Shown here piece by piece: positions 11,953-16,721 of a stretch of 42,218 nt of DNA (position 1 is the first letter of the stretch; each line of letters starts with the position of its first letter). The notes beneath the pieces are model-generated. The model made no database searches. It was not told the origin of the DNA and saw nothing but the letters and a program-made list of their open reading frames with translations. The stretch spans positions 1-42,218 of the forward strand of contig JAHEFR010000023.1 in the NCBI GenBank assembly GCA_024640085.1, written 5' to 3'. Origin of the DNA: Gammaproteobacteria bacterium. Its GTDB lineage: Bacteria; Pseudomonadota; Gammaproteobacteria; Steroidobacterales; XN24. A program made the translations under genes and the position numbers.

Positions 11953-12603
11953 CTATGCTTTTGCCGGGCCCGCAAGAAAGCGCTCGACCATGGGGCGTGC
12001 GTCGGCGGCGACCCGCTCGAAGGATGGCCTGGCGGCCAGATTCTCCCAGTACTCCACGATGGCCGGATGGTCATCGAACGGATGCACCCACGGCGCGTAG
12101 AACAACGCAGGCGCGGCGGCACAGTCGGCAAGAGTGAACTCGTCGCCCGCCGCCCAGCGTCGATGGGCGAGATTGTTGTCCAGAATGCCGTACATGGCGT
12201 CTATCCTCATGGCCGACCGCTCCAGCAGGGCGGCGTCGCGCGCTTGCTCCGGCTTGCGCCGCTCGAACAGGAGCCCGGCGATCTGGTCGTTGAGGTAGTG
12301 GTCCATGAGCCGGTCCTGCAGTCGCACCTCCAGGGCCGCATCGGGGTCCTCCGGCACCAGTTTTGGCCCCTCGGAGCTCAAACGGTCTACGAACTCGACA
12401 ATGATGCTGGCCTCCGGGATACGGCGGCCGTCATCGAGTTCAAGCAGCGGGATCTTGCCGAGGGGCCAGATGCGGCGGTAAGCATCCCAGGAGCCGGCAT
12501 CCATCGGGTTGACGAACTCTGGCTCGAATGCGACGCCCTTTTCGTAGAGAGCCATCAGCGCCTTCATGCAGTATGTGGAGAGCGGAGCGTAAAAGAGTTT
12601 CAT
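11953..12603 (-). CDS. Glutathione S-transferase family protein
   Basis: A 216-residue cytosolic GST. The N-terminal thioredoxin-like domain opens MKLFYAPLSTYCMKALMAL, where the Ser or Cys near residues 9-12 would activate glutathione. The cis-Pro is in GKIPLLELDDGRRI, and the Glu-Ser equivalent is PEASIIVEFVD. The all-helical C-terminal domain contains WAAGDEFTLADCAAAPAL, the GST N-capping motif. The ATG overlaps the stop of the DUF2914 membrane gene (ATGA), so the two are co-translated. The longer frame upstream of this ATG is a read-through of that neighbour. The substrate is unknown. Confidence 0.87.
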   Translation of the reverse strand: MKLFYAPLSTYCMKALMALYEKGVAFEPEFVNPMDAGSWDAYRRIWPLGKIPLLELDDGRRIPEASIIVEFVDRLSSEGPKLVPEDPDAALEVRLQDRLMDHYLNDQIAGLLFERRKPEQARDAALLERSAMRIDAMYGILDNNLAHRRWAAGDEFTLADCAAAPALFYAPWVHPFDDHPAIVEYWENLAARPSFERVAADARPMVERFLAGPAKA

Positions 12604-13820
12604 GGCGCCTCGATCCTCGCCTCGAAAGAAAGTGCGTCGATTTCCCGGCCACCGTCGTCGACGACCACCGCTCGCCACTGGCCGGGGCCAATGGTCTTGC
12701 TGGAATACACCCTCCAGTGACCGCTACCGCCGATGACGAAGGGGATCGTTGCCACCGTGTCGCCCTCCAGTTCCCAGCGGTGTTCGATGCGATCGCCGGG
12801 GCGGCCCTGGAGTTCGGTAAAGAAGTAGATCGTCAGGATCTCGTCAGCGGGAAGAGACACCTCGTCGATCACCAGGCCCACAGGTTCCCGATCCACGATC
12901 TCCATGGCAAGCGCCGCCCGGGGAACCTCGACGGCGGCGGAATCGCCCCCCGGCTCTACTGCACTGGCGGCCACGTCATCAGGGGGAGGGGCCCTGTCAC
13001 CCACGCCCGGGTCGCCTCGGGATTCGTCCGCTGCCCTCGCCGCCGGTGGCTCGTGCGTGGTTACCATGCCTTCGCTTTCGGAAGGGACCTGCGGCGGAGC
13101 CGGCAGGGCTGTTGCCTCTACGGGGGCGGGCGCCGGCGTCTGGATTACCGGGCCAGGCGAGGCTTGACCGGTTGGGTTTGGGGGCTCGACGCTTTCCGGC
13201 TGCCCGGCAGGGGACGCAATGGTCTCCGTGGACGTCGGTTCCTGTCCAGGCTGCGCCGATGAGTCGCCGGCGGAATTGTCAGGCGATCCCGACGCCTCGT
13301 CATCGATACCGGTCTCCGGGCCTACTGCGACCTGTTCGGGCGCGTTGCCATCTCCGTCCGTCATTCCGGGGTGCGTCGCGGCTCCGGCACGGACATCCTT
13401 GACCCCCTCCTCAGCCGAACCAGGCGATGATGGCACCGCTACGACGATCGCCGCGGGTTCCTCGTCTCCCGGGCCGATCAGGAACCAGGTCGCGCCGGAG
13501 GCAAGTAGCGCCGTCAGCAGACCGAAGAGGAAGTGACGCAGCCCCCGGCGCACCGGGCGCGGCGGCTGCCGGGTCTCCATGGAGTCCACCTCGGCGATCC
13601 GCCGGCTCTGCTCTAGGGCCTCAAGCGCGGCAGGATAGCCTGTCTCCGGGAACAGTCCGATCGTCCTCCTCCGCACGAAGTCGTCGCATGGATACACGTG
13701 CACCCAAGCCTTGACGCCGTTGGGGAACACGCTGAAAACCAGCTGGTCGGCCACCGGCGTGTCATATCGGCGGTCGCGTGGCGGGAGATCCCGGAAGTAG
13801 TCATCGCTGAACTGAGGCAT
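12600..13820 (-). CDS. Membrane protein: N-terminal integrase-arm-like domain, one TM helix, periplasmic DUF2914
   Basis: A 406-residue protein with three parts. Residues about 15-78 (VADQLVFSVFPNGVKAWVHV, RRRTIGLFPETGYPAALEAL, QSRRI) follow the pattern of the arm-type DNA-binding domain of tyrosine integrases (DUF4102): PNG, Trp, Tyr, basic-T-h-G-x-aPE, Ala, R+I. A single membrane helix spans about residues 96-115 with Arg before it, placing the N-terminus in the cytoplasm. A roughly 180-residue Pro/Ala/Glu-rich linker leads to DUF2914 at about 300-403 (MEIVDREPV, IYFFTEL, IEHRWE, GHWRVYSSKT, GQWRAVVVD). The layout recalls ToxR/CadC-type membrane regulators, but no catalytic or regulatory activity is shown. 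GGAG before the ATG supports the start. Confidence 0.8.
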   Translation of the reverse strand: MPQFSDDYFRDLPPRDRRYDTPVADQLVFSVFPNGVKAWVHVYPCDDFVRRRTIGLFPETGYPAALEALEQSRRIAEVDSMETRQPPRPVRRGLRHFLFGLLTALLASGATWFLIGPGDEEPAAIVVAVPSSPGSAEEGVKDVRAGAATHPGMTDGDGNAPEQVAVGPETGIDDEASGSPDNSAGDSSAQPGQEPTSTETIASPAGQPESVEPPNPTGQASPGPVIQTPAPAPVEATALPAPPQVPSESEGMVTTHEPPAARAADESRGDPGVGDRAPPPDDVAASAVEPGGDSAAVEVPRAALAMEIVDREPVGLVIDEVSLPADEILTIYFFTELQGRPGDRIEHRWELEGDTVATIPFVIGGSGHWRVYSSKTIGPGQWRAVVVDDGGREIDALSFEARIEAP

Positions 13821-13888: not shown

Positions 13889-15685
13889 TCAGGGAAGTCG
13901 GCCGGCATCGCGGTCACGCTCCACCGACCGGTGCTCGTCGGCGTCGAACAGGTCTGCGAGTTCGCGCCAGGCCGCCTCGGCGGACTGCAGCACGGATTTC
14001 TCGTCGTGCAGAACCGTGGCCTCGGTTCGCAACAGCCGCTCGTCGGCCTGGCGGAATCTCTCGATCGTCTCCCTGGCCCGGTCCGGGGTGTCGCCCATTT
14101 CGCGGAGCATGGCTGCAGCCATCTCGAGACTCGAGACAAACGCCTCCCGGATAATGTAATCCACCCCGAGATTCATGAGCAGGTGGGCGTGGTGCCGGTT
14201 CCGTGCCCGGGCGTAGATCTTCAGCCCCGGGAAATTCTTCTTCAGCATTTCCACGATCCTTATGGACTCCCTCGCATCCTGGACTGCGACCACGAAGACC
14301 CTTGCCCGATCGGCGTGGGCAGCGCGCATCAGGTTCGGGTCGGTGACATTGCCGTAATAGACCGACGCGTTGAAATGTCGCATGAAGTCGACCTGCGCTG
14401 CGTCGGATTCGATGGCGGTGAAGGGGATGCGGCGCACGTGCAGGATCCGGGCGACGATCTGTCCGAAGCGGCCCATGCCGGCGATGATCACGTCGTGGTC
14501 GTCGGTCTGGATCTCGTCGTACTCCCGTGCCGGGGCGTCAGGCGCGGCGCCTCGGGCGAGACGTTCGCCGAAGGTGACCAGGAAGGGGGTCAGCAGCATG
14601 GTCAGTGTCACGACCATGATCAGCAGCGCGGCCAGATCTTTCGGCATGGCGCCGGCGGCAATCGCCGCGGCGAAGATCACAAACGCAAATTCTCCGCCCT
14701 GGGAAAGAGTGAAGGCGATCCGAAGGGGCGCGGTGCCCGGAACCCGGAAGATCCGGCCCAGACCCCACAAGACAATCCCCTTGCCGGCCAATAGCGAGGC
14801 GGTGATCGCCAGCAACGCGACGGGCCTTTCCAACACGAGACCCAGGTTGGCGGCCATGCCCACGGAGACGAAGAACAGACCGAGGAGCAGGCCTTTGAAC
14901 GGTTCGATCTCGGCCTCCAGCTGGTGGCGGAATTCGGAATCGGCCAGGAGCACGCCGGCCAGGAACGCCCCCAGGGCCATGGAAACGCCCGCCGTGTACA
15001 TGATGTAGGCAGACCCCGTGACAACCAGCAGCGCCGCGGCGGTGAAGATCTCGTGACCGCCGAGGGCGGCCACGACCCGGAATGCCGGTCGGAGGAGATA
15101 ACGGCCGCCGAGGATCAGCGCGCCAATCACGGCGACCGACAGGAGGCCCTGGGCCAGGACGTTATCGGTGGCCCCGCTCCCGGACCCGAGCAGGGGGATA
15201 ATCGCGAGGATAGGGATGGCCGCCAGATCCTGGAAGAGCAGGATGCCAAAAGCGGCGCGCCCGTGCTGGGCGTTGAGTTCCTTCTTTTCCGCAAGAATTT
15301 GGAGGACGAATGCCGTGGAAGACAGGGCGAGCCCCAGACCGACCACCACCGCGATCCTCGTCTCCAGCCCTGCCCACACACCGACGGCGGCGATCAGGAC
15401 GGTGGTGACGACCACCTGGGCGGTGCCCAGGCCGAAGACGGATCTGCGCATCACCCGGAGCCGCGACGGCTTCAGCTCCAGTCCGATGATGAACAGCAGC
15501 AGGACGACGCCGAATTCGGCCATGTGCATGATACGGTCCACGTCGTCCACCAAGGCCAGCCCGAAGGGCCCGAGGGCGATGCCGGCGGCGAGATAGCCCA
15601 GCACGGATCCGAAGCCGAAGCGCCGGAACAGCGGTACGGCGATACATACGGCGACGAGAAAGGTCACAAGTTCGGCTAGCGTCAT
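13889..15685 (-). CDS. Monovalent cation:proton antiporter-2 (KefB/KefC-like) with TrkA-N domain
   Basis: A 598-residue inner-membrane potassium/proton antiporter. Twelve to thirteen hydrophobic segments cover residues 1-380, including the conserved GFGSVLGYLAAG and FGVVLLLFIIGLEL helices, LSSTAFVLQIL and the FQDLAAIPIL discontinuous helix. A cytoplasmic Rossmann RCK/TrkA-N domain follows (IIAGMGRFGQIVARIL, DPNLMRAAHADRARVFVVA). In KefB/KefC this domain binds glutathione adducts and NADH, which gate K+ efflux during electrophile stress. The ATG at 15685 has AGGGA seven bases upstream and is preferred to the start six codons earlier. It is divergent from the DUF4097 gene. Confidence 0.87.
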   Translation of the reverse strand: MTLAELVTFLVAVCIAVPLFRRFGFGSVLGYLAAGIALGPFGLALVDDVDRIMHMAEFGVVLLLFIIGLELKPSRLRVMRRSVFGLGTAQVVVTTVLIAAVGVWAGLETRIAVVVGLGLALSSTAFVLQILAEKKELNAQHGRAAFGILLFQDLAAIPILAIIPLLGSGSGATDNVLAQGLLSVAVIGALILGGRYLLRPAFRVVAALGGHEIFTAAALLVVTGSAYIMYTAGVSMALGAFLAGVLLADSEFRHQLEAEIEPFKGLLLGLFFVSVGMAANLGLVLERPVALLAITASLLAGKGIVLWGLGRIFRVPGTAPLRIAFTLSQGGEFAFVIFAAAIAAGAMPKDLAALLIMVVTLTMLLTPFLVTFGERLARGAAPDAPAREYDEIQTDDHDVIIAGMGRFGQIVARILHVRRIPFTAIESDAAQVDFMRHFNASVYYGNVTDPNLMRAAHADRARVFVVAVQDARESIRIVEMLKKNFPGLKIYARARNRHHAHLLMNLGVDYIIREAFVSSLEMAAAMLREMGDTPDRARETIERFRQADERLLRTEATVLHDEKSVLQSAEAAWRELADLFDADEHRSVERDRDAGRLP

Positions 15686-15791
15686 GCTCGGATCCCTGGC
15701 CACGGCTGGAGGAGAGCTAGCTTATCGATTTAAACCCGGGCTTTCCCGTGGGCGTCTCATTGAGGCGGTGGTTGAATTTATCGGAGCGAAC

Positions 15792-16721
15792 ATGTCTGGA
15801 AGATTCCTGAGCGTTGCCTTGCTGTCCTTTGCAGCGGGCGTGGCCGGCGCAGCCGACATCTCGAAGAGTTTCGACGTCACCCCCGGGGGTACCCTCGATA
15901 TCGACTCCGACGTAGGGTCGATTGAGGTCGTGCCCGGGGCAGCAGACAAGGTCACGATCGAAGTGGATGTCAGCGGGCGAGATGCCGACAGGCTGGTGGT
16001 TGACTTCGACCAGAAGGCCGACGGTATCCAGGTCAAAGCGCGGCTGGAGGACCGGGGGCGCAAGAACAGAAACTACAGCCTGAGGGCCAAATTCCGGGCG
16101 ACGGTCCCGCAGCAGTATGACGTCGTCCTGGACACGAGCGGCGGCGACATCGAAGTGGGAGACCTGGACGGCAAGGTGCGTGCCGATACCGCCGGGGGCA
16201 GTATCCTCGTCGGCGAGGTCACCGGACCCGTCAAGGCCGACACCGCCGGCGGTGGTATCGAGATCGAGGCAAGCCGGAAGGAGGTCGATGCCGACACTGC
16301 CGGGGGCAGCATCCGTCTGGGCGAGATGGGTGATCGGGTGCGTGCCGATACTGCCGGCGGCTCGATCCGCATCGAGACGGCGGCCGGCCCCGTGCGTGCC
16401 AGCACCGCCGGCGGCGGCATCACCGTCCGCGCGGCCTCGGCGGCGGTGGATGCCTCCACGTCTGGCGGTAGCGTCGACGTGACCTTCGTGGGCCAGCCGG
16501 ACGACGACAGTGACCTCGAGACCTCGGGGGGGAGCGTCACGGCAACGCTGGCGGATGACCTGAAATTCGACATCCAGGCTCGTTCCGGATCGCGGGTCAA
16601 GTGCGACTTCACCCTGGATGAGGCCAGGAAAGATGAGGGTCGCCTGGATGGCCGTCTGAATGGTGGCGGACCCCGCCTCCGGCTGAGCAGTTCCGGGCCG
16701 GTCCGGATTGAGCGGCGCTAG
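15792..16721 (+). CDS. Secreted DUF4097-family beta-solenoid protein
   Basis: A 309-residue exported protein. A signal peptide ends around GVAGA at residue 20. The middle consists of roughly 22-residue repeats of the form VRADTAGGSIRIxxxxGP, at least six copies in residues 110-235, which should stack as a right-handed beta-solenoid like other DUF4097 (putative adhesin) proteins. Many members are periplasmic or surface-associated. No enzyme motif is visible. GGAG seven bases before the ATG sets the start. The frame remains open 36 codons upstream, but that part lacks a ribosome binding site and would bury the signal peptide. A second DUF4097-like gene lies 10 kb away. Confidence 0.82.
   Translation: MSGRFLSVALLSFAAGVAGAADISKSFDVTPGGTLDIDSDVGSIEVVPGAADKVTIEVDVSGRDADRLVVDFDQKADGIQVKARLEDRGRKNRNYSLRAKFRATVPQQYDVVLDTSGGDIEVGDLDGKVRADTAGGSILVGEVTGPVKADTAGGGIEIEASRKEVDADTAGGSIRLGEMGDRVRADTAGGSIRIETAAGPVRASTAGGGITVRAASAAVDASTSGGSVDVTFVGQPDDDSDLETSGGSVTATLADDLKFDIQARSGSRVKCDFTLDEARKDEGRLDGRLNGGGPRLRLSSSGPVRIERR

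Follow-up and report, generated by a model that had tools for sequence, protein, structure and literature searches.

The question raised by this locus is what the arm domain of a phage integrase does at the head of a membrane protein. The gene lies in a window of 42,218 nucleotides (by window we mean the whole stretch of DNA that was analysed); its open reading frame starts with ATG, occupies exactly 12600-13820 on the minus strand and encodes 406 aa. The earlier note, made from the letters alone, had described the product as an integrase-type arm joined through a single membrane helix and a long linker to a C-terminal DUF2914 domain, with no recombinase catalytic domain, and had proposed a sensor-to-DNA circuit of the ToxR/CadC kind. 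When the whole protein was searched against Pfam, DUF2914 alone was detected; there was no match to PF13356 (Arm-DNA-bind_3), to a winged-helix N-terminal domain (the arm fold stands there instead) or to the core-binding or catalytic domain of a tyrosine recombinase, the last as the note had held, and an NCBIfam search of the 406 residues gave no match. The arm-domain fusion in this protein is confirmed (Table 1). We hold at a probability of about 95% that a gammaproteobacterial order acquired a phage-integrase arm domain, probably by a single capture, and that the domain was fixed to the inner membrane face by one helix and is mostly linked to a periplasmic DUF2914 domain.

Table 1. Features of the arm-domain gene and of the genes beside it (positions in the window).
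Feature	Residues	Position	Strand	Basis
Arm domain - membrane helix - linker - DUF2914 protein	406 aa	12600..13820 incl. stop	-	ORF, Pfam
Integrase arm-type domain (PF13356-like)	1-80	13581..13820	-	Profile and predicted fold
Membrane helix	97-115	13476..13532	-	Hydropathy; basic residues at N-terminal (cytoplasmic) side
Linker	116-297	12930..13475	-	P/A/S/T/E/Q/D/G = 0.82 of residues (C-terminal 110 residues outside the count)
DUF2914 region	298-406	12603..12929	-	Pfam match 344-400; modelled all-beta sandwich
GST gene, downstream		11953..12603	-	ATGA overlap
Kef-type antiporter gene (Na_H_Exchanger + TrkA_N), upstream		13889..15703	-	Domain matches

Residues 1-85 searched alone score 17.4 bits against PF13356 (E 0.005), below the curated cut-off of 27 bits, and this shortfall speaks for a chance resemblance or for the remnant of a decayed integrase joined to the frame of a neighbouring gene. 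The relatives point the other way. All 16 aligned members match PF13356 at a permissive limit of E <= 10 (best E 1.7e-12), and a profile built from 16 relatives finds the solved phage and CP4-like integrase arm domains 3ju0 (E 2.6e-11) and 3jtz (3e-11), the next match standing at E 0.61. The AlphaFold2 model of residues 1-80 (pLDDT 93.3, alignment of 9) has strands at 19-24, 27-31, 37-45 and 48-57 and a helix at 62-79, which is the sheet and C-terminal helix of PF13356. The sole Foldseek matches of this model under E 0.001 are 3jtz, 3rmp and 3ju0, with VIA-align Z scores of 12.9 for 3jtz, 12.5 for 3ju0 and 11.8 for 3rmp against at most 5.6 for rows that are not arms, and it superposes on the solved arm domains over 75-78 residues with an rmsd of 1.7-2.0. 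Because the family profile, the model, and the Foldseek and VIA-align scores agree, we regard the arm assignment as real. The note had named two results that would speak against it, a predicted structure unlike the arm domain and the absence of this N-terminus from orthologues; the fold is that of the arm domain, and at least 19 membrane-arm proteins carry the N-terminus. With at least 19 proteins in at least 15 genomes, a profile E of ~3e-11, a fold Z of 12.9 and a dN/dS of ~0.2 within one genus, chance or a decayed fragment is very improbable. All 16 aligned arms also match phrog_3423, a phage family of 157 positions with function unassigned (best 2.2e-12; residues 6-75 of the window arm), and just two of the 16 match the integrase family phrog_1. 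The members of phrog_3423 are possibly stand-alone or cut arm proteins of phages.

The remainder of the protein is built much as the earlier note had supposed. The membrane helix, placed by hydropathy at about residues 97-116, is the sole stretch of the window protein that reaches 1.6; a full-length scan from the arm start gave one stretch >= 1.6 in 17 of 19 members, among them the protein of the window, and a weak hydrophobic stretch alone in G014 and G027 (1.45 and 1.34). The N-terminal flank of the helix is the more positive one in 15 of 16 members. By hydropathy and flank charge the protein probably crosses the membrane once, its N-terminus lying inside, and the likeness in topology to ToxR/CadC regulators stands on the same hydropathy. 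The long linker is there too; in the 13 long-tailed members (of 16) its counterparts consist to 70-87% of P/A/S/T/E/Q/D/G, a composition that suggests a disordered-type linker in most members. The DUF2914 match (PF11141; E 1.5e-13, 50.7 bits vs a cut-off of 23.6) bears out the C-terminal domain, which was modelled with a pLDDT of 93.9 (alignment of 5). Its fold matches many immunoglobulin-like sandwiches, among them Leptospira 6oe6, RhoGDI/UNC119 and the Wzt sugar-binding domain, and because this fold is too widespread we rejected naming a ligand from it. Elsewhere in the order, one open frame of 864 aa (L107/L115, G387) carries two DUF2914 matches and, by eye, ankyrin-type repeats.

Matches to the full 406-aa protein were found in at least 17 of 59 genomes, its own included. 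Across the 296 genomes of the order, counted as lower bounds, the arm profile matches in at least 128 (own included), and membrane arms number at least 19 proteins in at least 15 genomes. Seventeen of the 19 score >= 99 bits; the other two are partial, one at a contig edge with 77.8 bits and one with 60.3. The highest-scoring integrase arm of the order reaches 70.2 bits, so the separation is clean save for the 60.3-bit partial copy. All 14 membrane-arm rows inspected have a hydrophobic stretch (mean Kyte-Doolittle >= 1.34) within 80 residues, and a catalytic-type motif is absent from all 14; the other 72 inspected rows (70 open frames) have no hydrophobic stretch above 1.19, and the integrase HxxR-type motif is present in 59 of them (57 frames), several of the 13 rows without it being cut or short frames. 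DUF2914 is carried by 16 of the 19 membrane-arm proteins. The proteins of G002, G005 and G006, all of one genus, end after the membrane helix, and these three genomes gave no DUF2914 match; among the short forms dN/dS is ~0.18-0.25, as expected under purifying selection. Two paralogues each occur in G021, G034, G046 and G056.

Within the order, the DUF2914 frames of G440, G460 and G496 gave no arm match, and neither did the whole genome of G387, in which DUF2914 is present, at E 0.001; the DUF2914 locus of G333 runs off its contig end, that of G037 begins at one, and in G001, of the window's own genus, an assembly gap lies where the arm would stand. Among the matches listed for 229 genomes of the class, the top arm outside the window scored 58.5 bits; with a closer profile and 349 genomes of the phylum, the window itself reached 143 bits and the best listed match elsewhere 76.3, the top twelve outside it falling in open frames 394-440 residues long. 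DUF2914 itself is found in at least 100 of 369 class genomes. The census of DUF2914 proteins for the same N-terminus, suggested by the earlier note, gave no arm match in any of the 29 proteins examined from the class; these came from 30 retrieved loci, of which L176 was left out, and are a part of the class matches. Carriage of the membrane arm by mobile elements was considered and rejected: the full protein had no tblastn match in plasmids and phages, and in viral contigs, where the arm profile finds at least 26 loci, 26 of 26 arm rows have an integrase-type motif and lack a membrane helix. No relative came up either when genome contigs were first scanned with the full protein.

The residue, charge and tree comparisons draw on 164 aligned arm matches after removal of those that had over 20 gap columns, were more than 93% identical to another retained match or belonged to neither class. 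Class (membrane or integrase) was set by score, membrane helix, catalytic motif or length, and charge was not used; two partial copies (G021:C25, G046:C9) and one near-copy (G014) stand outside the 16 membrane arms. In a maximum-likelihood tree of these 16 and 51 integrase arms, built on few columns (78) and with a root that is not known, the membrane arms fall on one side of a branch supported at 99/98, a split with which 98% of 200 bootstrap trees agree; one membrane row, L016, forms a long branch. Single capture is the simplest reading of this placement, which suggests that the arm domain was captured once.

Binding of DNA by the arm, as the earlier note had supposed, fares less well. Between integrase arms (n=51) and membrane arms (n=16) the share of K/R falls from 0.88 to 0.25 at position 13, from 0.41 to 0.06 at position 30, from 0.49 to 0 at position 40, from 0.55 to 0 at position 42, from 0.71 to 0.12 at position 44 and from 0.90 to 0.12 at position 48. 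Neutral, hydrophobic or acidic residues mostly stand there instead: V/T/L/I predominate at 40 and 42, and the commonest residue at 48 is F (7 of 16). D/E rises from 0 to 0.69 at position 7 and is also up at positions 11, 20 and 26. Other basic residues are retained: K37, R18, R50 and R51 persist, K/R at 51 goes up from 0.51 to 0.94, and K/R is gained at 52 (0.04 to 0.69). The presumed DNA-facing side comprises positions 28, 30, 32, 38, 40, 42, 44, 48, 50 and 52, chosen on the grounds of strand alternation and of the K/R enrichment there in integrases rather than of the contacts in 3rmp. On this presumed face the mean K/R count is 4.10 in all integrases, or 3.50 in those of the same order, and 1.81 in membrane arms, and that of hydrophobic residues is 3.53 or 4.20 and 5.19, respectively. 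Lambda Int is no more than an analogue here: the title of a lambda arm-DNA NMR paper in the reference list of PMC4880445 names beta-sheet recognition of the major groove, in agreement with the chosen face, but a figure legend of PMC4880445 speaks of a helix-turn-helix for the lambda Int arm domain.

Net charge separates the two classes without overlap, from +5 to +16 in integrase arms (n=51; +5 to +11 in the ten of the same order) vs -6 to +4 in membrane arms (n=16), 11 of which are negative. General acidity of the proteome was rejected as the cause with a control of 30 of the PF02899 matches: the net charge of Phage_int_SAM_1 (XerC/D-type) domains lies between +3 and +8 in 15 membrane-arm genomes, and for 15 such domains taken from 10 further genomes of the order it lies between +4 and +10. 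Acidic DNA-binding proteins are therefore not simply a general trait of the membrane-arm genomes. In a control of 20 Trans_reg_C domains, chosen mostly for long open frames, the 17 membrane-anchored winged-helix domains of such genomes range from -3 to +5. These domains presumably bind DNA; a near-neutral charge is therefore compatible with a membrane regulator, and the argument from net charge that DNA is not bound was withdrawn. The loss of K/R at particular positions is the stronger evidence, and it lowers the likelihood of DNA binding without excluding it; from the alignment, the DNA-gripping surface of the arm looks remodelled. Several CadC-like proteins (Trans_reg_C followed by a hydrophobic helix) were found in G000 and its relatives, indicating that ordinary membrane regulators coexist with membrane arms.

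The neighbourhood is less constant than the protein. The arm gene and the GST gene meet in ATGA, where the stop codon of the first overlaps the start codon ATG of the second, and in this coupling the earlier note had seen a hint of a stress circuit. The overlap holds in the window, but tblastn with the window GST against the DNA of 20 other neighbourhoods, each of 5-18 kb and among them the locus of the same genus, gave nothing at E <= 1e-3. GST was seen beside the arm gene in the window alone, and the circuit was rejected as a family feature. The Kef-type gene adjoins the arm gene in three of seven loci of the window's family (the window, G004 and G006), where it is the next gene upstream and has the same orientation. 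In G006 (L145:7792-9971) the end of the Kef-type gene and the start of the short arm-helix gene share 4 bases, a hint of translational coupling. In a second subgroup the arm gene lies opposite a glnE-like gene and near groEL-, dsbD-, hldD- and waaF-like genes (names by eye). Simple gene calls found no neighbour common to the whole family, and a conserved operon partner was rejected at that level. Divergent from the Kef-type gene, the window also encodes at 15684-16721 (+) a DUF4097 (toastrack) protein with many DTAGGSI-like repeats.

What, then, does the arm do at the membrane? The changed sheet positions and the forms that lack DUF2914 lead us to favour, at about even odds, a repurposed membrane-anchored docking module or adaptor in which the arm would no longer be a sequence-reading clamp. 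The former DNA-facing sheet would have turned into a conserved, partly hydrophobic surface with the arginine cluster at 50-52 retained; this remodelled surface may dock a cytoplasmic partner, another arm copy or acidic surfaces at the membrane, and DUF2914 may anchor to or sense something in the periplasm. Against this reading stands the lack of a known partner protein for the arm and, in the simple gene calls, of a neighbour gene shared family-wide. The arm could instead bind operators and DUF2914 sense a periplasmic signal, as in a ToxR/CadC-like one-component regulator. To our knowledge, DNA binding is the sole function of the arm fold. The topology fits a regulator, the title of 3rmp refers to attP recognition, the basic residues kept at 50-52, 37 and 18 could touch phosphates, the membrane winged-helix domains of such genomes are near neutral as well, and four genomes have two paralogues. 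These points are set against the loss of most K/R from the presumed DNA-facing positions and the confinement of the GST coupling to the window; moreover, three same-genus relatives keep arm and helix at low dN/dS in genomes without a DUF2914 match, which weakens the proposed sensor-to-DNA circuit although its topology fits. On balance we find the regulator a doubtful but still serious contender.

An unlikely third course is that the arginine cluster holds DNA or RNA near the membrane as a non-specific tether that reads no sequence. The basic residues at 50-52 suit it, and so does the DUF2914 protein L189, whose N-terminal domain is weakly RMF-like (PF04957, E 0.0038, below cut-off); the negative net charge of 11 of 16 arms and the increase in D/E at four positions argue against it. 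L189 (664-1692, G589) is of interest in its own right: a different module stands before its hydrophobic stretch, so DUF2914 may pair with several cytoplasmic modules, and nucleic-acid-type modules may recur among them. Besides the favoured docking module, we tentatively put forward, at somewhat less than an even chance, that a recombinase arm was exapted into a transmembrane signalling module in which DUF2914 takes the periplasmic input and the beta-sheet arm fold in the cytoplasm receives it. An arm that still reads DNA would make this a one-component membrane regulator on a fold other than helix-turn-helix; an arm that no longer does would be a DNA-binding fold turned into a protein-binding output domain, with both states open to comparison. 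A single probable capture, spread over several families of one order, offers a natural experiment on the repurposing of a DNA-reading sheet, and automatic annotation could mistake such proteins for integrase fragments.

So far as we know, arm domains are otherwise treated as parts of integrases. Among titles and abstract openings, with subscription literature mostly outside the scope, we found no description of the arm-membrane architecture, and the main text of a census of transmembrane regulators (PMC10269533), which keeps its domain lists in supplements, does not contain "integrase", "DUF4102", "arm-dna" or "recombinase". Other gammaproteobacterial DUF2914 proteins (PF11141) share the C-terminal domain with the membrane-arm proteins but differ in the rest: none of the 29 examined has an arm match, and by eye most consist of a signal peptide and DUF2914, some being multipass. 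With the arms of P4-like integrases (PF13356; 3jtz, 3ju0, 3rmp) the membrane arms have in common the fold and the core positions P33, G35, K/R37, W/F39, G55 and P58; they differ in the lack of core-binding and catalytic domains, in the membrane helix after the arm, in the basic sheet positions, which are largely lost, and in their separate branch of the tree. Like regulators of the ToxR/CadC type, the protein joins a small cytoplasmic domain of a DNA-binding fold to a periplasmic domain through a single membrane helix, but its cytoplasmic domain is not a helix-turn-helix, and three members of the family do without the periplasmic domain.
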